NCBI GenBank assembly: GCA_017084465.1
Contig: CP070896.1
Location: 3,337,501 to 3,401,500, forward strand
Source: Lacrimispora xylanisolvens
GTDB taxonomy: Bacteria; Bacillota; Clostridia; Lachnospirales; Lachnospiraceae
Reading direction: 5' to 3'
Length of the DNA: 64,000 nt
The notes below the pieces were generated by a model. The model had not been told where the DNA came from, made no database searches, and saw nothing but the letters and a program-made list of their open reading frames with translations. The position numbers were made by a program, and so were the translations under genes. Each line of letters starts with the position of its first letter. Position 1 is the stretch's first letter. Shown in pieces: positions 17,671 to 64,000 of the stretch.

Positions 17671-18426
17671 ATGAACAATACGGTGAAGGAACTGATGGAG
17701 AGAAAGTCAGTCCGTGTTTATGAGGACAGGCAGATTGAGCAGGAAAAGAAGGCGGCTATCGTGGAAGCAGCACTGCAGGCACCTACGGCTGGTAATATGA
17801 CCTTATATTCCATTATAGATGTGACGGATCCAGAGTTAAAACAGAAGTTGTCTGTAACCTGTGACAATCAGCCATTTATTGCAAAGGCTCCTATGGTTCT
17901 TGTGTTTGTGGCAGATTATCAGAAATGGTACGATCTTTTTTGCAAGTATGAGGATACAGTCAGAACTCCCGGAATGGGGGATTTTATGCTGGCAGCCGAT
18001 GATGCGTTAATCGCAGCACAGAACGCGGTTGTTGCAGCAGAGTCAATGGGAATTGGATCTTGTTATATTGGGGATATTCTAGAACAGTATGAAACTCACC
18101 GGGAATTATTTTCTCTTCCCAGATATGCTGTGCCAGCTGCAATGGTGGTTTTTGGCTATCCTGTTCCCCAACAGACAGAGAGAGTGAAGCCGAAACGATT
18201 AAGACCGGAGGCGGTTGTATTTGAAAATACTTATCGCCGTATGGAGCCGGAAGAATTTCAACATGAATTAAATAAGGTCACAGACAGAGGTGAAGATTTT
18301 GAACGGTGGATCCGGGCATTCTGCCAGCGCAAATGGAATTGCGATTTTAGTATTGAAATGAGCCGCTCTGTTAAGGCTATGATGAATCAGTGGGAAAATA
18401 AGGAGCAGCAGACGGATGAAGCTTAA
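17671..18426 (+). CDS. Nitroreductase family protein
   Basis: A 251-residue FMN-dependent nitroreductase-fold protein: MERKSVRVYEDRQIEQEKKA holds the FMN phosphate-binding RxSxRxF-like site, then APTAGNMTLYSIIDV and AAESMGIGSCYIGDILE. ATG 17671 follows AGAGAGGA. It resembles NfsA/NfrA-type NAD(P)H oxidoreductases; the C-terminal extension (after residue 190) is typical of the larger subgroup. The physiological substrate cannot be told. The following pseudouridine synthase start overlaps its end, so the two are cotranscribed. Confidence 0.88.
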   Translation: MNNTVKELMERKSVRVYEDRQIEQEKKAAIVEAALQAPTAGNMTLYSIIDVTDPELKQKLSVTCDNQPFIAKAPMVLVFVADYQKWYDLFCKYEDTVRTPGMGDFMLAADDALIAAQNAVVAAESMGIGSCYIGDILEQYETHRELFSLPRYAVPAAMVVFGYPVPQQTERVKPKRLRPEAVVFENTYRRMEPEEFQHELNKVTDRGEDFERWIRAFCQRKWNCDFSIEMSRSVKAMMNQWENKEQQTDEA

Positions 18427-19115
18427 TATATTATTTGAGGATGATGATATTCTTGTGGTGGAAACCGGCAGGAATTGAGTCTCAGTCCGGGAAGACGTTT
18501 GAACCGGATATGGTCAGTGAAATAAAGAAACATATCAACATACAATCCACAAAGAATGGGGAGCCATATGTGGGAGTTATCCACAGACTGGACAAACCTG
18601 TTGGCGGCGTAATGGTTTATGCAAAATCTCAAATTGCCGCAGAGGCTTTAAGCAGACAGGTTTCCGGGCAGCAGATGGAAAAAAATTATTATGCTGTTGT
18701 TTGTGGAAAACCTGTGGATAACTTTTGCACCTACGTGGATTATTTGTGGAAAGATGGAAAAAACAATTGTTCAAAAATTGTGGAAAAGGGGATAAAAAGT
18801 GCAAAACCCGCAGAACTGGATTATTGGTTTGTGGACAGCAAAATTTATGATGGTAAGGAAGTGAGCCTTCTTAAAATAAAGTTAAAAACCGGACGGCATC
18901 ACCAGATCCGTGTACAGATGGCAGGACATGGCACACCTTTGTGGGGAGACCGTAAGTATAATCCTGAATTTCAGAATCATTTTACAAAAGGAAATGTTGC
19001 TCTTTTTGCATCCAGTCTCTCATTTATTCACCCAAAAACAAAAAAGAAGATGACATTTTCCATAAAGCCAAAAGAAGGATTGTTTGAGCTTTTTTCCTGG
19101 CAGGATGCATTTTAA
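18416..19115 (+). CDS. RluA-family pseudouridine synthase, frameshifted
   Basis: The catalytic motif GVIHRLDKPVGGVMVYAKS (HRLD, with the active Asp) and the terminal KTGRHHQIRVQMA identify an RluA-type rRNA/tRNA pseudouridine synthase. It has no S4 domain. The N-terminus starts at ATG 18416 (MKLNILFEDDDILVV), overlapping the nitroreductase by 11 bases. It then shifts frame near 18455-18463 into KPAGIESQSGKTFEPD. An extra base, or two missing bases, at the GGTGGAAA stretch explains this. The repaired length of about 232 residues fits the short single-domain group. The modified RNA site is unknown. Confidence 0.87.
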
Positions 19116-52900: not shown

Positions 52901-54467
52901 TTACCCCTTTTTAAATCTGTCTAACTGTTTAATCTCTGCGTTATCAGAAGAGTCAAAATCCAGTTCAGACTTTACTAACTGAAGATCCGGATATGCAGCT
53001 ACGCCCATTTCTGGAATATCCAGTCCGGAAAGTTCTGCCTCTGGTGATACCCTTAAGCCCCAGATTTTGTCCAGAACTTTAAAGAATACATAAGATACAC
53101 CAAATCCCCATACAAAAAGGACAATTACTGCAATAAACTGGGCTGCAAACTGGGAAACATCCCCGTAATACCCTTCACTCCACCTGCAACACCGTTAATC
53201 CCATCCCCGTAGGACCCATCGGCAAATAAGCCTAAAGAAAGAACTCCCCAAAGACCATTTACACAGTGAACAGAAATGGCACCTACCGGATCATCAAGCC
53301 TTAAATGATTCTCTACAAAAGATACTGCCAGACAAACCAATATACCCGCTATTAGTCCAATAATGAAAGAAGAGGCAGCATTAACAAACGCGCAGGGTGC
53401 AGTAATGGCAACCAGACCTGCCAGTGCACCGTTTGCTGTCATGGAAGGATCTGGTTTCCCATATCTGATCCACATATAAAACATGGCTGCCAGACCACCG
53501 ATTGCACCGGCTATCATGGTGTTGGTTGCAACAACAGAAAGCCTGAAATCCGAAGCGTTCAGCGTGGAACCGGCATTAAAAGAAAACCAGCAGAAGAACA
53601 GGATAATGGTTCCAATAATGGCCATAGGGATATCGTGCCCCGGAAATGCCCTTGTAGTTCCGTCTTTTTGAATTTACCAATTCTTGGGCCAATGACAATT
53701 GCGCCAGCCAGTGCCAGCATACCGCCCATGGAGTGAACAACTGCAGAGCCGGCAAAATCTACAACGCCATGTCCCAGACCAAAGTTTTTACCAAGGGTTG
53801 ATAACCAGCCACCGCCCCATACCCAGTTTCCGAACAGAGGGTAGAGAAACATGGAAATAAAAAATGAAGTAATAACAATTGCGGAGTATTTTATTCGTTC
53901 TGCAACAGCACCGGTTGGAATCGTAACGGTGGTATCCATAAATACCATCTGGAAGAAAAATAATGCATAGATACCAGGATCATAGATACCATCACCTGAT
54001 AATAAAAATCCTTTATAACCCAGAATACCACCAATTCCTGGTATTGACAACATGGCATTAAGTGCGCTGCCTCCTGTTCCCAAACCCGCAGCGCCGCCGG
54101 AGCCCCCGAACTGGAGTGCAAAACCAACAAGAAAATATCCAACAGCGCCAACTAAGAATACCATAAAATTCATTGTCATGGTGTGAGCTGCATTTTTACC
54201 ACGGCAGAATCCGGTTTCAACCATAGCAAAACCGCACTGGAAAAAGAATACCATAAAGCCGGTTATCATAATCCAGGTAAAATTAGCACCATAATAAGCT
54301 TTGTTGGCCATGGTAGCCACATCTGTAATTGTCTCTTTTCCGGTAGGCATTACATAGGAAGCACCTGTTGGATCTGCACTGCCTGGTGAGGAAAAAGCCA
54401 AAGCCAATGCGATTGCAGCTATCCCTAATACGATCAGTAAACCAATGATTGTTCCTGTTTTTTTCAT
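52901..54467 (-). CDS. amt: Ammonium transporter Amt, two frameshifts
   Basis: Amt/Mep/Rh transporter of about 522 residues after repair. It shows an N-terminal hydrophobic signal-like segment, FTWIMITGFMVFFFQCGFAM, VETGFCRGKNAAHT, the pore region VVDFAGSAVVHSMGGMLAL, the amt signature area FNAGSTLNASDFRLSVVATN, and the His of GVLSLGLFADGSYGDG. Two bases are missing: one in the T run 53667-53671 (repair gives KFKKDGTTRAFPGHDIPMAI) and one in CCC near 53169-53171 (repair gives GVKGYYGDVSQFAAQFI). The tail continues to the stop at 52901. Start ATG 54467 follows GGAGG. Confidence 0.93.
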
Positions 54468-55375: not shown

Positions 55376-56554
55376 ATGAAAAAGGGGTTAGCAATGGTTC
55401 TTGCGGCAACGTTGATTTTATCAGCGACGGGATGCGGCAGCGGGACAACAGCAGCAACTACGGCTGCAGAAACAGAGAAAAAAACAGAAGCTTCAAAAAC
55501 AGAAGAAACCACAACAGCAGCACAGAAGGTAGCGGACGCACAGGCTGCCGGTTCTCTGAAAGGTAAGAAAGTCGCAGTAGTCAGAAATTTAGCTGCCGGT
55601 GATCATACACAGCAATTCCTCGATGGCTGTGTATCAGAAGGCAAGAAATTTGGGTGGACTGTGGATACGTTTGTTACAGATGGGGACGATGCAAAAGCAC
55701 AGGAGACGGTAGCACAGGTAATTGCAAAAGGTTATGACGGTTTGATTGTATCTCATGGACAGCTTTCTTATTCTTACGATATGTTAAAGCCTGCAAGAGA
55801 TAAGGGAATGGCAGTTGTTACATTTGATACCATGCCATTTAAAGGCGGAGATGCAAACGGTCTTCTTCTGGATGGGGTAACATCAACCGCTCAGAATGAT
55901 CAGGCACTTGCAGAACTTTCCCTGGGCTATATGATGAAGGAATTTGAGGCAAAGGGAGGCAAATATCCCATGAAGGTGCTGAAAACATTTATGGGCCCTG
56001 GCATTCCTCCTCTGGACAGGCGTAATGAGATTTATGCAAAGCTGGAAGACGAAGGAAAGATTAAGACGCTGGAAGTAATTGCACCATCTGACTCTGCCAA
56101 TGCAAGAGGAGATATGACCAATAAGACAGCGGCGATTCTTCCTAAGTATCCGGAAGGATCCGTAGATGCAATCTGGGGATGTTATGACGAACTTGCCAAG
56201 GGAGTTCTGCAGGCACTTAATGATGCAGGCAGAACAGATATTCCTATGTATACCATTGACGTATCCAATGATGATATCCAGCTGATGGTTAAAAATCCTC
56301 AGGTGTGGAAATCTACTGCGGCGGTTGATCCTAAGCTGATTGGAATCGTGGATACCCGCCTTCTTGCTCTTAAGTTATTAGGAGCAGAGACTCCAAGTTA
56401 TTTTGATTTAAATGCCAGTAACATTGAAACAACGCAGCTGAGTGCAGAGACCACCATGGTTGATCTTGGCAAGATTGTAGATGGCTGGGGCGATGCCGAA
56501 GATCCGAAAGGAGCCCTGTTTACTGATGTGATTAAAGGGCTTTATGTAGAATAG
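55376..56554 (+). CDS. Ribose-type ABC transporter substrate-binding lipoprotein
   Basis: A 392-residue periplasmic-binding-protein-like lipoprotein. The signal peptide with lipobox LSATGC has Cys about 20 as the lipid anchor. A Thr/Glu/Lys-rich linker runs to about residue 55, then a two-lobe sugar-binding fold of the RbsB/XylF group (KKVAVVRNLAAGDHTQQFLD, GLIVSHGQLSYSYDMLKPARD, DAIWGCYDELAKGVLQALND). The neighbouring MtnK and MtnA homologues suggest the ligand is 5-methylthioribose or 5-deoxyribose, not ribose. It starts the operon with a strong AAGGAGG. Confidence 0.9.
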   Translation: MKKGLAMVLAATLILSATGCGSGTTAATTAAETEKKTEASKTEETTTAAQKVADAQAAGSLKGKKVAVVRNLAAGDHTQQFLDGCVSEGKKFGWTVDTFVTDGDDAKAQETVAQVIAKGYDGLIVSHGQLSYSYDMLKPARDKGMAVVTFDTMPFKGGDANGLLLDGVTSTAQNDQALAELSLGYMMKEFEAKGGKYPMKVLKTFMGPGIPPLDRRNEIYAKLEDEGKIKTLEVIAPSDSANARGDMTNKTAAILPKYPEGSVDAIWGCYDELAKGVLQALNDAGRTDIPMYTIDVSNDDIQLMVKNPQVWKSTAAVDPKLIGIVDTRLLALKLLGAETPSYFDLNASNIETTQLSAETTMVDLGKIVDGWGDAEDPKGALFTDVIKGLYVE

Positions 56555-56598
56555 CGGGATTCATTTCACAGTCATTACATAGGTAAGGAAGAGACGTC

Positions 56599-58110
56599 AT
56601 GAACGAGATAAAGCTTGAAATGAAGGATATATCCATAGAGTTTCCAGGGGGTTAAGGCTCTGAATGGAGTTGATTTTAGTTTGACAAGTGGCAGCATTCA
56701 TGCGCTCGTTGGAGCCAATGGTGCCGGCAAGTCCACGCTGATGAAAGTGCTTGCCGGTGTTAACACACATTATACAGGACAAATAAGTGTCGGAGGGGAA
56801 CCGGTAGAAATCCGGTGCCCCAAAGATGCAAAAAATCTGGGAATAGAAATTGTGTTTCAGGAAGTTGACACAGCTTTAATCCCATATCTGACTGTAGCTG
56901 AAAATGTGATGTTTAACACCCTGGTTAATAAAATGGGGAAAAAACAGGTTGTACATTGGAAGGAAATCAAACGGGCGGCAAAAGCGGTACTTGAAAAGTT
57001 AAATGTGGCAGTCGATATTAATAAACCGGTATCTGCGCTGACACTTGCACAAAAGCAGATGGTTTTAATTGCACGGTGTGTGGTGGAAAAGTGCCGTTTT
57101 CTCATATTAGATGAACCGACTGCACCTCTTTCTAATTCCGAGACACTGGAACTTTTCAGGGTTGTCCGGGAATTAGCAAAAGAGAATGTTGGTGTGGTAT
57201 TTATCTCTCACCGGCTGAGCGAGCTATACGAGATTTGTGAAAGCATCACCATCATGAGAGATGGAATGCTGGTGACAAATCTGCCTCTTACGAAAGAGCT
57301 GGAGGTTAATACCCTGGTTGAATATATGCTGGGACGCTGCTATGAGGATAATTATATTAAAAAGCGTGTGAAATTGGAGAACCGCTCCTTGAAATAGAGG
57401 ACCTTACTGAGAAAGACGGTAAGGTGAAGAATATAACCATAACCGTACGCGAAGGGGAAATCGTAGGTGTGGCAGGTTTGGTAGGAGCCGGAAAGACAGA
57501 GCTGTGTAAGACGTTGTTTTCTGCCTATCAGCTTAAAAGCGGTACCATGAAGCTCCGGGGAAAAGTAATCCGTGCAAAAGGCCCCACCCAGGCAGTAAAA
57601 AACGGTCTGGCTCTGGTTCCGGAAGAACGCAGGAAGGAAGGCGTTTTAATCTCAGATACGGTAGTATCCAACATTTCCGTGGCGGCTATGGAGAAATATA
57701 CCAACAAATTATCGGTTGTCAATAAAAAACGGGAAAAAGAGGATGCAAAAAATATGATCCGTGATCTTGGGATCAAGACACCGTCTGAAAACCAGGTGGT
57801 TTCTCTTTTGTCCGGCGGAAACCAGCAGAAGGTAGTAGTTGGAAAGTGGCTGAATAAAGATTCGGAAGTTTATATTTTCGATGAGCCCACAAAGGGAATT
57901 GATGTAGGTGCCAAACAGGATATGTATGAGCTGATTGAAGGACTAGCTGCCAAAAGGAAAGGCATCATCTATGCAACCTGCGAATTTCAGGAGATATTAA
58001 GTATCTGTGACCGGATCTATGTCATGTATGACGGAGAGATCATCAGGGAGCTGAAAGCAGCGGATACAGATGAGAAGGAACTGCTTTATTATTCGACGGG
58101 AGGTAAATGA
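56599..58110 (+). CDS. Ribose-type ABC transporter ATP-binding protein, two frameshifts
   Basis: Double-domain RbsA-type ATPase of about 503 residues after repair. First domain: HALVGANGAGKSTLMKVLAG, a signature region ALTLAQKQMVLIARCV, and FLILDEPTAPLSNSETLE. Second domain: VAGLVGAGKTELCKTLF, LSGGNQQKVVVGKWL, YIFDEPTKGIDVGAK. An extra G in 56647-56651 breaks the start (repair gives IEFPGVKALNGVDFSL), and one A is missing near 57369-57371 (repair gives RVKIGEPLLEIEDLTEKDGK). ATG 56599 follows AGGAAG. It energises uptake with the neighbouring binding protein and permease. Confidence 0.92.
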
Positions 58111-58111
58111 T

Positions 58112-59131
58112 ATGTCTGGGGCAGAGAAGGTAAAAAAGAAAGGTAATTTAGGGGATTTTGTAACAAGATGGGGTACGATTGCAACAATGGTAATCCTGTT
58201 TGTTCTGTTTACGTTTGGTAACTGGAGTAAGGATACGGGGACAAGCATGTTTCTGACTCAATCCAATATGATCACAATTTTACGTGCCGTGTCGATTACC
58301 ACAATTATTGCGATTGGTCTAACTTTTGCACTGGCGGTTAATGGTATGGATCTTTCCATAGGAGCTACGGCGCAGCTGGCAAATGTATTTGTAATGACAT
58401 GTTTTGTATGGCATAACATCAACATCGGCGTTTCGATTATTCTTACCGTCTTAATCTGTTTAAGTGTTGCGGTGATTAACAGCATTCTGATTGTTAAGTT
58501 TAAAATACCGGATATGGTTGCTGCACTTTCCGTTATGTTTATGTATCAGGGTGTTTCCATGACCTATTCAAAGGGCGGCGCCATTACGGAGCGGATGACC
58601 AGGGCGGATGGAACTCAGGCGCCAGGTCTTGTTCCTGAGGCATTCAGGGCTTTGGGAAAAGAACCGTGGCTGATCATTATCATGGTTTGTGTGGTGCTGT
58701 TTGCTTATTTCTTTCTGAATTTTACAAAGCATGGCAGATATATGTATGCGGTAGGAGGTAACCCTGAGGCAGCCGAACTTTCGGGAATTCCTGTGGCAAG
58801 GTATAAAATTCTGGCCTATTTTCTGTCGGCAACCTTTGCTTCCATTGGCGGCATCTGTCTGGCAGCACGTGTGGGAACAGCACAGATCTCTGCCGGAGAT
58901 GCATATTTAATGCCGTCTGTATGCGCAGCTTATATTGGCTTTTCCGTATTAGGGGCTGGTAAGGCCAATGCTTTTGGAACGTTTGCAGGAGCGGTTTTAG
59001 TAGGTATGCTGGAAAATGGACTTATTATGATGTCCGTTCCGTATTATGCAATGAACATAATTAAGGGCGCAGTCCTTGCGATCGCACTTGCCATGACCTA
59101 TGCCAGCGGAAAAACAAAGAATGCAAACTAA
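58112..59131 (+). CDS. Ribose-type ABC transporter permease
   Basis: A 339-residue membrane protein with about eight to ten helices of the RbsC group: TILRAVSITTIIAIGLTFAL, AVNGMDLSIGATAQLANVF, the cytoplasmic coupling loop GGNPEAAELSGIPVARYKIL, and the C-terminal GTFAGAVLVGMLENGLIMM. ATG 58112 follows GGGAGG and lies two bases after the ATPase stop. The transporter probably imports a pentose analogue for the kinase encoded next. Confidence 0.93.
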   Translation: MSGAEKVKKKGNLGDFVTRWGTIATMVILFVLFTFGNWSKDTGTSMFLTQSNMITILRAVSITTIIAIGLTFALAVNGMDLSIGATAQLANVFVMTCFVWHNINIGVSIILTVLICLSVAVINSILIVKFKIPDMVAALSVMFMYQGVSMTYSKGGAITERMTRADGTQAPGLVPEAFRALGKEPWLIIIMVCVVLFAYFFLNFTKHGRYMYAVGGNPEAAELSGIPVARYKILAYFLSATFASIGGICLAARVGTAQISAGDAYLMPSVCAAYIGFSVLGAGKANAFGTFAGAVLVGMLENGLIMMSVPYYAMNIIKGAVLAIALAMTYASGKTKNAN

Positions 59132-59167
59132 ACAGAGATTATAAAATGAACGGGGAAGGTGACAAAA

Positions 59168-60397
59168 ATGTCTAAATACGACAGTTATTTTTTAATGAAG
59201 GCACCAGAAGTTCCAGATTACGTACGGGAAAAGCTTTCTTATTTTGACAAAGGAGCAGAGCTGGAATGTAAGGAAATTGGTGACGGAAACTTAAACTATG
59301 TATTTCGGGTGAAGGATGGAAAAAGCGGAAAATCAATTATTGTAAAACAGGCAGGCGAGGCTCTTCGAATCTCTGCTGATATGCATATCTCCACGGACAG
59401 AGGAAGAATCGAGGCTAAGATTCTGGGAATTCAGGAGATGTACGCGCCGGGACTGGTTCCTAAGGTTTATCTTTACGATGGTGTGATGTGCGCCATGATC
59501 ATGGAAGATATGACCGGACATACCATGATGCGTACTGGCCTGATCAACCATGAAATTTACCCTCTGTTTGCAGATCATGTGACCACATTTATGGTAAATT
59601 CCCTTTTACGGACCACGGATGTGGTAATGGGGCATAAGGAAAAAAAAGAACTGGTAAAAAGCTTTATCAATCCGGATTTATGCGAAATCAGTGAAGATCT
59701 GGTGTACAGTGAGCCTTTTATTGACTATAACCACAGAAACAATGTGTTCTTACCCAATCAGGATTTTGTAAGGGAAGAGCTCTACCAGGATCAGGCACTG
59801 CATTTAGAAGCTGCAAAACTGAAATTTGAATTTATGAATCATGCACAGTCACTGATTCATGGAGATCTGCATACAGGATCTGTATTTATTAATAAGGAGC
59901 ACACATTTATTTTTGATCCGGAATTCGCATTTTTTGGACCAATGGGCTACGATATTGGCAATGTGATAGCAAATATATTCTTTGCATGGTGCAATGGAGA
60001 TGCTGTCATTACTGATGAAGAAAAGAGGGCAGAGTTCTGCGGATGGTGCCTTCAGACCATTTCCGATGTGGTGGATCTTTTTATAGAAAAATATAATAAG
60101 GTATTTGATGAATATGCCACTGACAGGATGGCAAAAGTACCGGGATTTAAAGAGTGGTATCTGGAACAGATCCTATCTGATACAGCAGGCGTTGCCGGAC
60201 TGGAATCAATCCGCCGGATTGTGGGTATGGCCAATGTAATTGATATTACAACCATTCCGAATGAAACAAAACGTACCAGAGCAGAGCGAATTGTGATCAC
60301 GCTGGCAAAAAAATATATTATGAACCGGGATACCTTCCGCTGCGGCGCAGACTATTTAAAAGCCATCAAAGAGGCAGTTGGTAAGTACGAATCATAA
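59168..60397 (+). CDS. mtnK: S-methyl-5-thioribose kinase-like protein (MtnK family)
   Basis: A 409-residue APH-fold sugar kinase. It shows the nucleotide loop EIGDGNLNYVFRVKDGKSGK, the KQAGEALRIS lysine region, the catalytic loop SLIHGDLHTGSVFINKE with HGDLH, and the metal-binding FIFDPEFAFFGPMGYDIGN (DPE). These match MtnK, which phosphorylates methylthioribose; homologues also accept 5-deoxyribose. ATG 59168 is chosen because GGGGAAGGTG lies just upstream. The partner mtnA follows, but no other methionine-salvage gene (mtnB, mtnW, mtnX, mtnD) is present. Confidence 0.93.
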   Translation: MSKYDSYFLMKAPEVPDYVREKLSYFDKGAELECKEIGDGNLNYVFRVKDGKSGKSIIVKQAGEALRISADMHISTDRGRIEAKILGIQEMYAPGLVPKVYLYDGVMCAMIMEDMTGHTMMRTGLINHEIYPLFADHVTTFMVNSLLRTTDVVMGHKEKKELVKSFINPDLCEISEDLVYSEPFIDYNHRNNVFLPNQDFVREELYQDQALHLEAAKLKFEFMNHAQSLIHGDLHTGSVFINKEHTFIFDPEFAFFGPMGYDIGNVIANIFFAWCNGDAVITDEEKRAEFCGWCLQTISDVVDLFIEKYNKVFDEYATDRMAKVPGFKEWYLEQILSDTAGVAGLESIRRIVGMANVIDITTIPNETKRTRAERIVITLAKKYIMNRDTFRCGADYLKAIKEAVGKYES

Positions 60398-60417
60398 AAG
60401 ATGGGAAAGGCAAAAAC

Positions 60418-61518
60418 ATGAGTGAAGACAAAAAGAAATCCATTATGGATTATGACACAGTGGCACTTGATGAAGAAAACCATGCCCTGGTTATTATAGA
60501 TCAGACACAGCTTCCGTATAATACGGTAATTCTTTCATTAACAAATCAGGAGGATATCTGGAGCGCCATTTATCTTCTTCAGGTAAGAGGGGCACCTGCG
60601 ATCGGAGTGGCGGCAGCAATTGGCATCTATCTGGCAGCAAGAGAGATTGAAGCTTCTGATTTTGGAGAGTTTTTCCGGAAATTCAGTAAAGCAAAGGATT
60701 ATCTTGATTCAGCACGTCCGACTGCAGTCAATCTTTCCTGGGCTTTAAAACGAATGGAAGGAATTGTTTTAGACAATAAAGACAAGTCTGTTTCTGAGAT
60801 CGTAGAGGAATTGCATAAAGAGGCTGTAAAAATAAGAGAAGAGGATATCTGGGTGTGTAAGACGATTGGAGAATATGGTCTTACCCTTGTAAACCCAGGA
60901 GATGGACTGCTGACGCACTGCAATGCAGGGCAGCTTGCCACTGTAAAATATGGTACCGCAACGGCACCTATGTATCTGGGACAGGAACGGGGATATCATT
61001 TCCGCATTTTCTCAGACGAGACCAGGCCGTTGCTCCAGGGAGCAAGACTGACATCCTTTGAGCTAAAGGAATCCGGACTTGATGTAACCGTAATCTGTGA
61101 TAATATGTCTGCTTCTGTTATGCGTAAGGGCTGGGTCAATGCTGTGTTTGTAGGGTGTGACAGAGTGGCGGCCAACGGAGATACTGCAAACAAAATCGGA
61201 ACTTCCATGGTGGCACTGGCTGCTAAGCGCTACGGTGTGCCCATGTATATCTGTGCACCGACCTCCACAATTGATTTGAGTACGCCCACTGGGAAGGAAA
61301 TCCACATTGAAGAACGTCCTGCAATGGAAGTGGTGGAGATGTGGTATGAAAAACCAATGGCTCCCGAAGGAGTAAAGGTGTTTAATCCCGCTTTTGATGT
61401 CACGGATCATGATCTGATTGCAGGAATTGTTACAGAGTATGGAATCGCAAGAGAGCCATATAGTGAGTCGCTGAAAGAGATATTCAGAAGGAAACAGGAA
61501 GCGTTAAAAGGTGAGTGA
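60418..61518 (+). CDS. mtnA: Methylthioribose-1-phosphate isomerase-like protein (MtnA/DrdI family)
   Basis: A 366-residue eIF2B-like isomerase: LQVRGAPAIGVAAAIGIYLA, LLTHCNAGQLATVKYGTATA (catalytic Cys region NAGQLA), VFVGCDRVAANGDTANKIGT (catalytic Asp), and VFNPAFDVTDHDLIAGIVTE. It turns the aldose-1-phosphate into the ketose-1-phosphate. For 5-deoxyribose-1-P or MTR-1-P the product is the substrate of a class II aldolase, encoded 1 kb downstream. It ends the rightward operon begun at 55376. Confidence 0.94.
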   Translation: MSEDKKKSIMDYDTVALDEENHALVIIDQTQLPYNTVILSLTNQEDIWSAIYLLQVRGAPAIGVAAAIGIYLAAREIEASDFGEFFRKFSKAKDYLDSARPTAVNLSWALKRMEGIVLDNKDKSVSEIVEELHKEAVKIREEDIWVCKTIGEYGLTLVNPGDGLLTHCNAGQLATVKYGTATAPMYLGQERGYHFRIFSDETRPLLQGARLTSFELKESGLDVTVICDNMSASVMRKGWVNAVFVGCDRVAANGDTANKIGTSMVALAAKRYGVPMYICAPTSTIDLSTPTGKEIHIEERPAMEVVEMWYEKPMAPEGVKVFNPAFDVTDHDLIAGIVTEYGIAREPYSESLKEIFRRKQEALKGE

Positions 61519-61525
61519 CGGTAAA

Positions 61526-61554
61526 GAGGATGCCTTGCTTTAAGGGACATCCTC
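61526..61554. terminator. Hairpin between the convergent mtnA and deoR genes
   Basis: GAGGATG (61526-61532) pairs with CATCCTC (61548-61554), with inner CCTT/AAGG. There is no good T run, so termination efficiency is uncertain. Confidence 0.45.
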
Positions 61555-61566
61555 CTGAAGACCGGG

Positions 61567-62334
61567 TTAGGCGTCGATGGCCTCATACAGGGCAACATTA
61601 TATTTAGTCAGATACTCGGTCCACTGGCTGTCAAGATTTTTGTCGGTAATCAATCCGGTAATAGCATCAAAGCCGGATATGGTGATGAAAGAGGTTTTAT
61701 TAAATTTGGAATGGTCCGCTACCAGATAGATATGATTGCTGCGTGTGAGCAGAGTCTGCCGTATGGCTGCAATTGATTCGTTGGAATCGGTGATTCCGTG
61801 TTCCATGGATACGCTTCTGCAGGACATAAAGGTTTTATCCAGATAGAAAGACTCTAAATTCCGGATTGCTGTATTGCCGACAAATGCCTTATCTCTTGGC
61901 GCATAGGAGCCACCCAGGGTTATAAGGCGTATATCTTCTTTATCCTGAAGTTCATTGATAATAAGAAGAGAATTGGTAACTACTGTCAGGCGCATTCCCT
62001 GAAGCTCCCGGGCAATCTGGAGAGCGGTTGTGGAGGCATCTAAAAAGATGGAATCGCCGTTATGTATCAATGAGAGGCATTTTTTAGCAATGGCCTTCTT
62101 ACTTTCCATATATGCGGTTTCCCTTATGGTAAGCTCCACATTGTTCTCGACCCCGTCCTGTATGAATGCACCTCCGTAAGTTCTGGTAAGGAAACCGTCG
62201 TCTTCCAGCTGCTTTAAATCACGGCGTATCGTTTCCTCGGTTACGGAAAATATTTTAGATAATTCCGTTACTGTAACACTTTTCTTTTCTAATATAATAT
62301 CTTTGATTTTGGCTTTCCTTGTTACTGCTAACAT
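61567..62334 (-). CDS. DeoR/GlpR-family transcriptional repressor
   Basis: A 255-residue repressor: N-terminal DeoR helix-turn-helix (SVTVTELSKIFSVTEETIRR, then DLKQLEDDGFLTRTYGGAF) and a C-terminal sugar-phosphate-binding DeoRC domain (DSIFLDASTTALQIARELQG, LTVVTNSLLIINEL, TLGGSYAPRDKAFVG). ATG 62334 is chosen because AAAGGAAC lies about 6 bases upstream; ATG 62340 is the alternative. It sits leftward between the transporter/kinase operon and the aldolase operon, so it probably controls both in response to a phosphorylated deoxypentose. Confidence 0.92.
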   Translation of the reverse strand: MLAVTRKAKIKDIILEKKSVTVTELSKIFSVTEETIRRDLKQLEDDGFLTRTYGGAFIQDGVENNVELTIRETAYMESKKAIAKKCLSLIHNGDSIFLDASTTALQIARELQGMRLTVVTNSLLIINELQDKEDIRLITLGGSYAPRDKAFVGNTAIRNLESFYLDKTFMSCRSVSMEHGITDSNESIAAIRQTLLTRSNHIYLVADHSKFNKTSFITISGFDAITGLITDKNLDSQWTEYLTKYNVALYEAIDA

Positions 62335-62460
62335 AGGCATGTTCCTTTCTTTCTGCGAACAAATTTTTTGAAATGCAGTATGAAACCATAAGAATACAGT
62401 GACATATAAGCATATTGTATATTTTTTTTGTCAAAATGTAAAGGAAAAATGATCAAAATA

Positions 62461-62549
62461 AAAACAAAACAAAACAAAACACATAAAAACAAATATAAAT
62501 TTGCTAAAATACAGCAAAAATTGACAAGTTCAGACAAGCCATGTATCTA
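62461..62549 (+). promoter_or_regulatory. Divergent promoter region with AAAAC repeats (candidate DeoR operator)
   Basis: AAAAC is repeated four times in tandem at 62461-62480, with related AAAAC units nearby. TTGACA at 62521-62526 with TATCTA at 62544-62549 (17-base spacer) is a candidate promoter for the aldolase operon. AACAAAAC also occurs, in inverse orientation, upstream of the transporter operon near 55139-55149. Operator function is inferred. Confidence 0.45.
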
Positions 62550-62575
62550 GTCGTTTGAACTTTGGAGGGATGGTT

Positions 62576-63556
62576 ATGATGACAGTTCAGGGCGTGAAAT
62601 ACATGTCTGATTTTGAAGCCAAAAAGGCAATTTTGGACATTGGCAAGCGTATGTATGACAAAGGCTTTGTGGCTTCCAATGATGGAAACATAAGCTGTAA
62701 GGTGGGACCAAACACGATCTGGACAACACCCACCGGCGTATCCAAGGGATTTATGAAACAGGAAATGCTTGTAAAGATGGATTTAAACGGCAGGGTGCTT
62801 ATGGGCAACTCAAAACCCTCATCAGAAGTAAAGATGCATTTAAGGGTTTATCAGGAAAATCCGGATGTACAGGCAGTTACACACGCCCATCCTCTGGTGG
62901 CAACCAGCTTTGCCATTGCAGGTATCAGTCTGGATGCGGCTGTTTTGACGGAAGCAGTATTGGGGCTTGGCTCTATTCCCATTGCAAAATATGCAACACC
63001 TGGTACGGAAGAAGTTCCTGATTCCATTGCACCGTTTGTAAATACCCACAACGGGGTACTCCTTGCAAATCATGGAGCATTAACCTGGGGAAAAGATATT
63101 TTTCAGGCATTTTACCGGCTGGAGTCCATTGAATATTATGCAACCATATTGATGTATACAGGGAATATCATCGGCCGTCAGAATGTACTTTCCTGTGATC
63201 AGGTAAATAAACTGCTTGATATCCGGCAGAAACTGGGCATTACTGCAGGCGGAATTCCACCCTGTTCCTTACAGGAAACCAATATGAGAGATGTAATTAC
63301 TTCTTCCGATATCCGGCCATCCTGGCCCGCTTCGCCGATTCAGGCTCCACTTAATCCGCCGGTTCATGAATTAAAGGGTGTCACTCCGCTTGTGAAACCA
63401 GGGCAGACTTCGCCTCTTAAAGAAGGGGGATGTTCTTGTGGAATTTCTTCTATACCCAGGGAAACGGTGGAAAAGAAAGATACTGAGAATTTAAGTAAGG
63501 CAAAGGATGAAATTATTGCTGAGGTTGTGAGAAGAGTCATGGGGCAGTTTAACTAG
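62576..63556 (+). CDS. Class II aldolase with microcompartment-type C-terminal extension
   Basis: A 326-residue protein. Residues about 15-225 form a fuculose-phosphate-type class II aldolase: VASNDGNISCKV, TPTGVSKGFM, SSEVKMHL (catalytic Glu), VTHAHPLVATS (zinc His pair) and LLANHGALTWG (third His). After it comes a Pro/Ser/Thr-rich linker of about 80 residues with a CSCG element, then a terminal amphipathic helix DEIIAEVVRRVMGQFN. That layout is a typical encapsulation peptide on microcompartment cargo. With MtnK and MtnA it would cleave 5-deoxyribulose-1-P (to DHAP and acetaldehyde) or methylthioribulose-1-P. ATG 62576 follows GGAGGG; ATG 62579 is equally possible. Confidence 0.88.
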   Translation: MMTVQGVKYMSDFEAKKAILDIGKRMYDKGFVASNDGNISCKVGPNTIWTTPTGVSKGFMKQEMLVKMDLNGRVLMGNSKPSSEVKMHLRVYQENPDVQAVTHAHPLVATSFAIAGISLDAAVLTEAVLGLGSIPIAKYATPGTEEVPDSIAPFVNTHNGVLLANHGALTWGKDIFQAFYRLESIEYYATILMYTGNIIGRQNVLSCDQVNKLLDIRQKLGITAGGIPPCSLQETNMRDVITSSDIRPSWPASPIQAPLNPPVHELKGVTPLVKPGQTSPLKEGGCSCGISSIPRETVEKKDTENLSKAKDEIIAEVVRRVMGQFN

Positions 63557-63565
63557 GAGGAAAAA

Positions 63566-64000
63566 ATGGAAATTGGGACAAGGGAGATTGAACTGATTGT
63601 AAGAGAAGTGCTTGCAGGGCTGGATAAGAAAAGTCCGACACCTTCTGTGATTCCTTCTCGGAGTGACAACGGAGTATTTGATCGGGTGGAGGACGCAATT
63701 GAGGCGGCTTACAACGCTCAGCGGGATTGGATCAATCATTATAAGGTAGAAGACAGGAGAAGGATTATTGAGGCGATCCGATCCGTTGCAGGGAAACACG
63801 CCCAGTCACTGGCAACTATGGTGCAGGAAGAGACCGGCATGGGTCGTGTGGAAGATAAGCTTCAGAAACATCTGGCAGTCATTGAGAGGACTCCCGGTGT
63901 GGAATGCCTGACTACGGAGGCCATCTCCGGTGACGGCGGGCTTATGATAGAAGAATACGCACCGTTTGGAGTGATTGGAGCCATTACACCTTCAACAAAT
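63566..64000 (+). CDS. CoA-acylating aldehyde dehydrogenase (EutE/PduP type), 5' part
   Basis: The first 145 residues are visible; the gene runs off the right edge. The N-terminus TREIELIVREVLAGL is an amphipathic helix followed by a Pro/Ser linker, the encapsulation-peptide layout of PduP and EutE. The catalytic domain then begins (VEDAIEAAYNAQRDW ... MVQEETGMGRVEDKLQKHL ... EYAPFGVIGAITPSTN). Such enzymes turn acetaldehyde or propionaldehyde into the acyl-CoA inside a microcompartment. ATG 63566 follows AGGAGG 9 bases after the aldolase stop, so the two are cotranscribed. Confidence 0.92.
   Translation, partial: MEIGTREIELIVREVLAGLDKKSPTPSVIPSRSDNGVFDRVEDAIEAAYNAQRDWINHYKVEDRRRIIEAIRSVAGKHAQSLATMVQEETGMGRVEDKLQKHLAVIERTPGVECLTTEAISGDGGLMIEEYAPFGVIGAITPSTN

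Follow-up and report, generated by a model that had tools for sequence, protein, structure and literature searches.

What pathway is encoded in the last 8.6 kb (55376-64000) of the window, a 64,000-nucleotide stretch of Lacrimispora xylanisolvens (positions 3,337,501-3,401,500 of CP070896.1; C1:3337501-3401500 of its own genome)? A ribose-type ABC importer, the kinase MtnK, the isomerase MtnA, a DeoR-family regulator, a class II aldolase and a CoA-acylating aldehyde dehydrogenase (AldDH) stand together there, and every member of this list, drawn up in the initial annotation, has a Pfam or NCBIfam match (Table 1). We consider it probable that the locus encodes a metabolosome-type bacterial microcompartment (BMC) with an aldolase of the dihydroxyacetone phosphate (DHAP) shunt as signature enzyme, serving 5-deoxyribose and/or 5-methylthioribose. 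The idea of a microcompartment that would enclose the released acetaldehyde, also put forward in the initial annotation, is the best reading of the evidence below.

Shell and core enzyme genes beyond the window edge

The contig was extended rightward, with shell genes expected within 15 kb. According to two stretches of the same contig that continue past the window (L009 and L010), the first shell gene starts about 1.0 kb beyond the window end. The complete AldDH (L009:11067-12488; PRK15398 661 bits, cut-off 403) is followed by four PF00936 frames, PduL, BMC-P, a solute-binding-protein-like gene, a CoA-disulfide-reductase-like gene, two CoA-transferase-like subunits and an Fe-alcohol dehydrogenase (Fe-ADH), all within L009:12452-19990, and then by DhaK and a DhaL-like gene (L010). 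The shell proteins, encoded at L009:12452-14747, comprise four PF00936 members (hexamer-type) and one PF03319 member (pentamer-type). Single-domain BMC and BMC-P genes had thus been correctly anticipated, directly after AldDH, as had a phosphotransacylase (PduL, PF06130 255.9 bits) and an alcohol dehydrogenase (Fe-ADH, PF25137 198.2 bits and PF00465 157 bits) in the downstream cluster; the BMC-T gene that was also predicted is not seen in the window's own cluster. The locus, of which 20 proteins from the window and downstream parts were scanned with Pfam, holds both the shell families (PF00936 and PF03319) and the core enzymes (AldDH, phosphotransacylase and alcohol dehydrogenase) by which a metabolosome-type BMC is recognised.

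Conservation of the gene set across genomes

The same-family survey covered 299 genomes from 299 genera, the window's own included, and took in the flanks of 40 matches. Among the matches listed, an aldolase at least 59% identical to the window's occurs at 15 places, the window's own counted. Two other genera, represented by L048 (G024, probably the L094 record of Anaerocolumna aminovalerica) and L049 (G164), have the set from MtnK to Fe-ADH with its order unchanged and with 54-85% identity; the third BMC gene was not matched with its own counterpart in this comparison. Among named relatives, Lacrimispora xylanisolvens DSM 3808 (L088) stands nearest, its aldolase being 98% identical.

Named genomes were scanned with an aldolase alignment, and the neighbours in the best 80 loci (more exist) were scored with profiles built here. 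A shell-type gene is present in 35 of the 80, either in the stretch or just past it (L105 and L167, as shown by L179 and L178), and 28 of these 35 also carry mtnK and mtnA. The expectation that mtnK, mtnA and the aldolase would be found beside shell genes in other genomes is thereby borne out, in differing gene orders, although several loci are near duplicates and neither 35 nor 28 is a number of independent events. Represented among these loci are Lacrimispora, Anaerocolumna, Proteocatella, Clostridium, Bacillaceae, Paenibacillus, Oscillospiraceae and Treponema. The other seven shell-linked loci are L091, L098 and L103 (in all three of which the contig ends close upstream), and L102, L093, L117 and L124. 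Only BMC-P-type shell genes are seen in 4/35 (L101, L112, L117 and L124).

The shell-linked loci were compared with 34 shell-less loci that have long flanks (at least 6 kb on both sides of the aldolase). PduL occurs in 32/35 of the former and 0/34 of the latter, AldDH in 30/35 (with two more via L178 and L179) and 0/34, and the CoA-transferase-like A subunit in 25/35 and 0/34. MtnK (28/35 versus 9/34) and the ABC permease (27/35 versus 7/34) are also commoner in the shell-linked loci, whereas MtnA is frequent in both sets (30/35 and 33/34). This distribution would be in line with two uses of the route, internal disposal where there is no shell and growth on imported sugar where there is one.

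At least three layouts can be told apart. Layout A, the window's type with variations, is found in Lachnospiraceae, Proteocatella, Clostridium bovifaecis, Paenibacillus and Bacillaceae. Layout B has the order aldolase-PduL-BMC-P-AldDH-BMC with further BMC-P genes (L052, L053, L055, L110, L111, L120 and L121); no AldDH match was obtained in L053 and L121, apparently one genome. In 6/7 layout-B loci, all but L111, a RuBisCO-like protein stands between DeoR and the aldolase (L052:8797-9948; PF00016 98.5 bits). Its best NCBIfam match is DK-MTP-1-P enolase with 198.7 bits, under the cut-off of 409, and its nearest solved chain is 3qfw. Layout C (L105, L122, L126, L129, L137 and L167) places the aldolase, a flavoprotein and the CoA-transferase-like pair upstream of MtnK-MtnA-PduL-AldDH-BMC. 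Constant linkage despite changing order is what a pathway unit would give.

Proposed pathway and its substrate

For substrate, encapsulation, flux and regulation we infer the following scheme. The ABC importer would bring in a 5-deoxypentose (5-deoxyribose and/or 5-methylthioribose), which the cell's own MTA/SAH nucleosidase might also make. Two probably cytosolic steps would follow, phosphorylation at C1 by MtnK with ATP and isomerisation of the product by MtnA to a ketose 1-phosphate. This phosphate would then enter the shell, where the tail-bearing aldolase would release DHAP and acetaldehyde (or methylthioacetaldehyde). Encapsulated AldDH would turn the aldehyde into acyl-CoA, PduL would convert acyl-CoA to acyl phosphate and free CoA, and Fe-ADH would reduce part of the aldehyde, recycling NAD+. 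As long as no substrate is at hand, DeoR probably keeps the operon repressed. Confinement of the aldehyde would shield the cell from it and help to draw forward an aldol cleavage that is otherwise unfavourable.

Published work supplies precedents for single steps. In vitro, 5-deoxyribose is broken down to DHAP and acetaldehyde by the products of drdK-drdI-drdA, and cleavages of this kind favour condensation, with equilibrium constants of about 1e-4 (PMC6079011), so that an AldDH in the same enclosure would help to draw the reaction towards cleavage. The E. coli DHAP shunt is repressed by MtnR, a DeoR-family protein (PMC12632272), and E. coli ATCC 25922 with this shunt did not grow fermentatively on 5-deoxyribose (PMC10986504). 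The proposed organelle could solve this last difficulty and suggests how anaerobes might live on the sugar, with acetaldehyde trapped and disproportionated inside it.

The genome (5.63 Mb, rated 89.5% complete) has one MtnK match and one MtnA match, with no second copy found of either. Internal by-products could feed the route too, since the genome also encodes an MTA/SAH nucleosidase (PRK05584 266.6 bits, cut-off 169). As for the ARD enzyme of aerobic methionine salvage, none was found in this genome at the stated completeness.

Two further kinds of protein bear on the substrate. The CoA-disulfide-reductase-like flavoprotein passes the cut-off of PRK09564 (579 bits versus 458), but not that of TIGR03385 (475 bits versus 579). 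The CoA-transferase-like pair (L009:17251-18087 and 18068-18796) has as nearest solved relatives 5mzw and 5n03, a 'glutaconate CoA-transferase family' pair that forms a Myxococcus decarboxylase. In all 28 B-subunit homologues aligned with E. coli AtoA, the window's included and some of them near duplicates, the catalytic glutamate of the AtoA S-E-N-G motif falls in a gap, and NI(P/G)GG is kept.

These proteins enter into the strongest of the competing explanations, a sub-case of the proposed BMC whose odds overlap with it, according to which the main substrate is 5-methylthioribose and not 5-deoxyribose. The aldehyde would then be methylthioacetaldehyde and the organelle would hold reactions of sulfur compounds, in which the CoA-disulfide-reductase-like and CoA-transferase-like proteins would act on methylthio or thiol products. 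Methylthioribose is the sugar from which MtnK and MtnA take their names, and characterised DrdK takes both sugars (PMC6079011); a CoA-disulfide-reductase-like protein lies in the cluster, and the confinement of the CoA-transferase-like pair to shell-linked loci in the above comparison suggests chemistry beyond acetaldehyde. Against this, no methanethiol-handling gene was recognised among the 20 scanned proteins, AldDH, PduL and Fe-ADH explain the core without sulfur, and the pair is not seen in most layout-B loci. We rate this variant as rather unlikely, with the reservation that gene content cannot separate the two sugars.

More tentatively still than for the window itself, the loci might together form an unrecognised organelle class, namely a metabolosome for 5-deoxypentoses left by S-adenosylmethionine (SAM) enzymes, spread over Lachnospiraceae, Bacillaceae, Paenibacillaceae, Oscillospiraceae and Treponema in at least the three layouts above. 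In two layouts, the CoA-transferase-like pair, which lacks the usual catalytic glutamate, and the CoA-disulfide-reductase-like enzyme could perform a new (methylthio)acyl-CoA step, and in the third the RuBisCO-like protein of most members could give the ketose phosphate a second fate; both would be possible unstudied organelle parts. If true, aldolase-bearing microcompartments whose function has been merely guessed would gain a substrate and be linked to the disposal of radical-SAM and polyamine by-products. The claim is testable in culturable strains such as Lacrimispora.

Aldolase phylogeny and comparison with known systems

According to NCBIfam, the 25 of 31 aldolase matches listed are all under their own cut-offs, and the substrate of the aldolase is therefore not readable from these models. 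Residues E75, H94, H96 and H157, which on the model of FucA would be catalytic and metal-binding, are invariant in an alignment of 13 sequences. The core matches solved FucA (4c25, 4c24) and DrdA (6btg, 6btd) structures at 30-32% identity, with 31-32% for DrdA.

In a tree of 123 sequences, the window's aldolase falls into a branch made up largely of mtnA-associated aldolases, some from loci with shell genes and some from loci lacking them. E. coli FucA pairs with the E. coli mtnK-adjacent aldolase, which we take to be Ald2 (support 1.0), and B. thuringiensis DrdA stands near the root. The window's aldolase is thus outside the branches of the biochemically characterised DHAP-shunt aldolases, and aldolases appear to have been taken into the DHAP shunt on more than one occasion. 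Consequently, the proposal of a DHAP-shunt aldolase holds for the clustering of MtnK, MtnA and a class II aldolase but not for closeness to the characterised enzymes, and the substrate assignment is based on gene neighbourhood.

The tree also bears on a second explanation, a fucose/rhamnose-type BMC in which the aldolase cleaves fuculose or rhamnulose 1-phosphate and mtnK and mtnA are neighbours with another task. The aldolase is indeed a FucA homologue, its tree neighbours include aldolases of BMC loci without mtnK and mtnA, and catalogues link the aldolase-bearing PVM-like type to similar sugars in the passages cited below. However, the aldolases of the fucose/rhamnose-looking BMC loci (L064-L067, L082 and L083, assigned to this type by look only; 47-53% identical to the window's) form another clade (0.97), together with several aldolases of loci without shell matches. 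Grouping with these enzymes had been named as the outcome that would speak against a deoxypentose pathway, and the tree, with moderate support, does not give it. Moreover, no fucose/rhamnose isomerase or kinase and no glycyl-radical enzyme is among the 20 proteins scanned with Pfam, and mtnA lies near the aldolase in most shell-linked and shell-less loci alike, which makes this explanation very improbable.

Several known systems share parts of the locus. In the DHAP shunt (drdK-drdI-drdA; mtnK-mtnA-ald2 of E. coli), the kinase, isomerase and class II aldolase are clustered as in the window, some clusters are described with a sugar transporter and the E. coli one with a DeoR-family repressor, and the window's locus has both; the B. 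thuringiensis and E. coli aldolases, however, are on other tree branches. PVM/GRM5 fucose/rhamnose BMCs, as described, have a FucA-like aldolase, AldDH and DeoR in common with the locus, and differ from it in the kinase or isomerase and glycyl-radical enzyme mentioned above. In the sugar phosphate utilising (SPU) BMC, an aldolase likewise frees acetaldehyde from a pentose phosphate for AldDH, but by the same account it relies on DeoC (pfam01791) and RpiB (pfam02502), neither of which is among the 20 scanned proteins.

The closest description is that of PVM-like BMC loci (PMC4207490, PMC8217296 and PMC8156839), which share aldolase, DeoR, AldDH and shell genes with the window's locus, so that the locus fits it. 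The cited passages mention neither a kinase nor an isomerase for methylthioribose, and the substrates that they suggest are fucose/rhamnose-like or related to 1,2-propanediol; a core alcohol dehydrogenase is given for only one PVM-like locus of 2014 (PMC4207490). Because of this overlap, the organelle type may already be catalogued as PVM-like, under another presumed substrate; what is new here is the proposed deoxypentose function, the kind of BMC itself being known. No paper joining the breakdown of 5-deoxyribose or methylthioribose with a BMC was found in searches of an open-licence library without preprint servers, and the word 'microcompartment' does not occur in the main text of PMC6079011, PMC10986504 and PMC12632272. 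In Acetobacterium woodii, according to PMC7593272, pduU/pduV have as neighbour a gene for methylthioribose kinase, which the authors regard as unconnected with BMC function.

The C-terminal tail of the aldolase

Past the conserved GG, the aldolases carry either a long tail (at least 30 residues) or a short one (at most 22 residues). All 35 shell-linked aldolases have a tail of at least 30 residues, and none of the 34 short-tailed aldolases, 25 of them with long flanks, has a shell neighbour. The Fisher test of tail against shell gives p = 1.3e-11 on 69 of the 80 loci (11 short-flank, shell-less ones dropped), a value that ignores kinship and the near duplicates L088-L091 and is not to be taken literally. 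Within the tree, short-tailed enzymes nest inside tailed groups (L123 and L127; L144, L151 and L158; L155 and L161), as would be expected if tail and shell were lost together.

The AlphaFold2 model of the window's aldolase, made with 35 sequences, has a confident core, a linker whose ten-residue blocks have confidence (pLDDT) values of 41-60 over residues 231-290, and a helix at residues 293-315 with values of about 66-83. The C-terminal helix on a flexible linker, described earlier from the letters, is therefore also seen in the model. As marks of cargo, the aldolase tail is backed by both model and comparison; the N-terminal helix of AldDH (MEIGTREIELIVREVLAGLD) looks like an encapsulation peptide by eye, and the pattern and moment values for it are weak.

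In terms of hydrophobic moment against shuffles, the aldolase tail has p = 0.08, the AldDH N-terminus 0.04 and PduL 0.07, and 14/35 shell-linked tails reach p < 0.05. The C-terminus of MtnK, however, also has p = 0.01, so that the test is weak and not specific. A simple helix pattern at the C-terminus is found in 12/35 shell-linked tails, 4/11 other long tails and 0/34 short ends, but also in 18/35 permeases. In the N-terminal region, it is present in 20/30 AldDH (first 40 residues), 7/31 PduL, 0/38 MtnK and 0/71 MtnA proteins, as well as in 16/25 CoA-transferase-like B subunits and 20/35 permeases; being unspecific, it was not used as proof. Comparative linkage of tail and shell is stronger support for an encapsulation signal than the hydrophobic moment.

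Points weighing against the proposed function

Several observations weigh against a deoxypentose BMC. As for the aldolase, the closest solved enzymes are only about 30% identical, and by sequence FucA 4c24 (95 bits) precedes DrdA (86) and E. coli FucA (75). The support of the mtnA-linked branch is moderate, 0.74 without and 0.78 with a small mixed group that includes L068, L070 and L078, BMC loci without an mtnA match whose aldolases fall beside that branch. No enzyme of the window's branch is known to have been assayed. Regarding the neighbourhood, only 18/35 shell-linked loci have DeoR and only 8/35 have Fe-ADH. Neither MtnK nor MtnA was found in the stretches of L093 and L102, and L117 is counted as shell-linked for one BMC-P-like match, in a genome without a PF00936 gene. 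The scheme offers no clear role for the CoA-disulfide-reductase-like, CoA-transferase-like and DhaK proteins.

As for the tail, 11/46 tailed aldolases have no shell gene nearby, and the whole-genome PF00936 search in 10 of these 11 cases gave genes in seven and none in L118, L119 and L166. A role of the tailed Bacillaceae aldolases of L128, L130 and L138 in a BMC encoded elsewhere in the genome was checked: BMC clusters exist, but L173-L175 have no AldDH match; L176, from the same genome as L128, has one. The shell-less tails, including the three without any PF00936 gene in the genome, speak for a DHAP shunt that remains cytosolic and passes nothing but its aldehyde, by diffusion, to an adjacent BMC for acetaldehyde in general, the tail being no encapsulation signal, but the separation of short-tailed from shell-linked aldolases and the modelled helix after a flexible linker, as in known encapsulation peptides (PMC12339742), leave this explanation with little to recommend it.

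Feature coordinates and minor observations

Table 1. Features of the locus in window coordinates
Feature	Position	Strand	Basis
Sugar-type periplasmic binding protein, ABC importer	55376..56554	+	PF13407 90.9 bits; lipoprotein-like signal by eye
ABC ATPase, RbsA-type	56603..58110	+	Two open pieces, 56681-57397 and 57424-58110; PF00005 93.3 bits (first piece)
ABC permease, ribose-transporter family	58070..59131	+	PF02653 116.2 bits
MtnK, 5-methylthioribose / 5-deoxyribose kinase	59159..60397	+	TIGR01767 406.8 bits, cut-off 275
MtnA, aldose-ketose isomerase acting on the 1-phosphate	60418..61518	+	TIGR00512 404.4 bits, cut-off 279
DeoR-family regulator	61567..62340	-	PF00455 175.2 bits, PF08220 55.3 bits
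Class II aldolase, proposed signature enzyme	62555..63556	+	PF00596 167.8 bits
Aldolase linker, residues 231-292 of the modelled protein	63296..63481	+	Low-confidence, disordered-like in AlphaFold2
Aldolase C-terminal helix, residues 293-315, putative encapsulation peptide	63482..63550	+	AlphaFold2 helix; tails of at least 30 aa in 35/35 shell-linked loci
AldDH, N-terminal part, putative encapsulation peptide	63566..64000	+	Runs on past the window to L009:12488

The start codon of the aldolase is probably one of the ATGs at about 62567-62603. The nearest NCBIfam model of the permease is ribose permease (158 bits, under the cut-off of 398), and homologues of the periplasmic binding protein adjoin the permease in many compared loci. 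In the operator search, the number of A-rich repeats upstream of the aldolase does not clearly exceed that in dinucleotide shuffles (56/1000 shuffles reach the count), and upstream of the importer 598/1000 shuffles reach it.

Frame breaks affect the ABC ATPase (window 56603-58110), the third BMC gene (L009:13160-13472; its PF00936 frame is shortened to 84 aa versus 127 aa in L088) and DhaK (end of L009 to L010:1022), and could be assembly indels or real lesions. At the same places L088, whose aldolase is 98% identical, has unbroken frames of 503, 127 and 339 aa, respectively, the ATPase being a single frame and the 339-aa frame standing after the alcohol dehydrogenase. An ammonium-transporter-like gene (named by eye) at window 53125-54467 is also frame-broken. 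DhaK (PF02733 334 bits) is broken at its start, with the DhaL-like frame adjoining it in L010; DhaK- and DhaL-like genes close the cluster in G164 too, and both are under the NCBIfam equivalog cut-offs.

The solute-binding-protein-like gene inside the BMC cluster (L009:14722-15876) has no obvious signal peptide by eye, and its homologues occur in many layout-A loci. L050 and L059 also have RuBisCO-like homologues, which lie about 6-8 kb away from their tailed aldolases. The shell-linked locus L093 (L093:4915-9752) has a tailed aldolase (69% identical, tblastn) with a nucleoside hydrolase (PF01156) and another ABC importer upstream, and is perhaps a 5'-deoxynucleoside version of the pathway. 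In L117 (L117:8210-10795), a BMC-P-like domain lies in a 229-aa frame that adjoins mtnA and a tailed aldolase.

In the BMC loci L068, L070 and L078, AldDH shares 60-66% identity with that of the window and the shell genes are similar, but the aldolase is only 32-40% identical. Upstream in L078 are genes for a beta-keto-acid cleavage enzyme, a GntR regulator and a TRAP transporter, on account of which this group probably has a different substrate. Finally, further groups of BMC genes are present in the window's own genome (C1 at about 2498-2514 kb, 4928-4930 kb and 5258-5259 kb), and therefore several organelle types may coexist in it.

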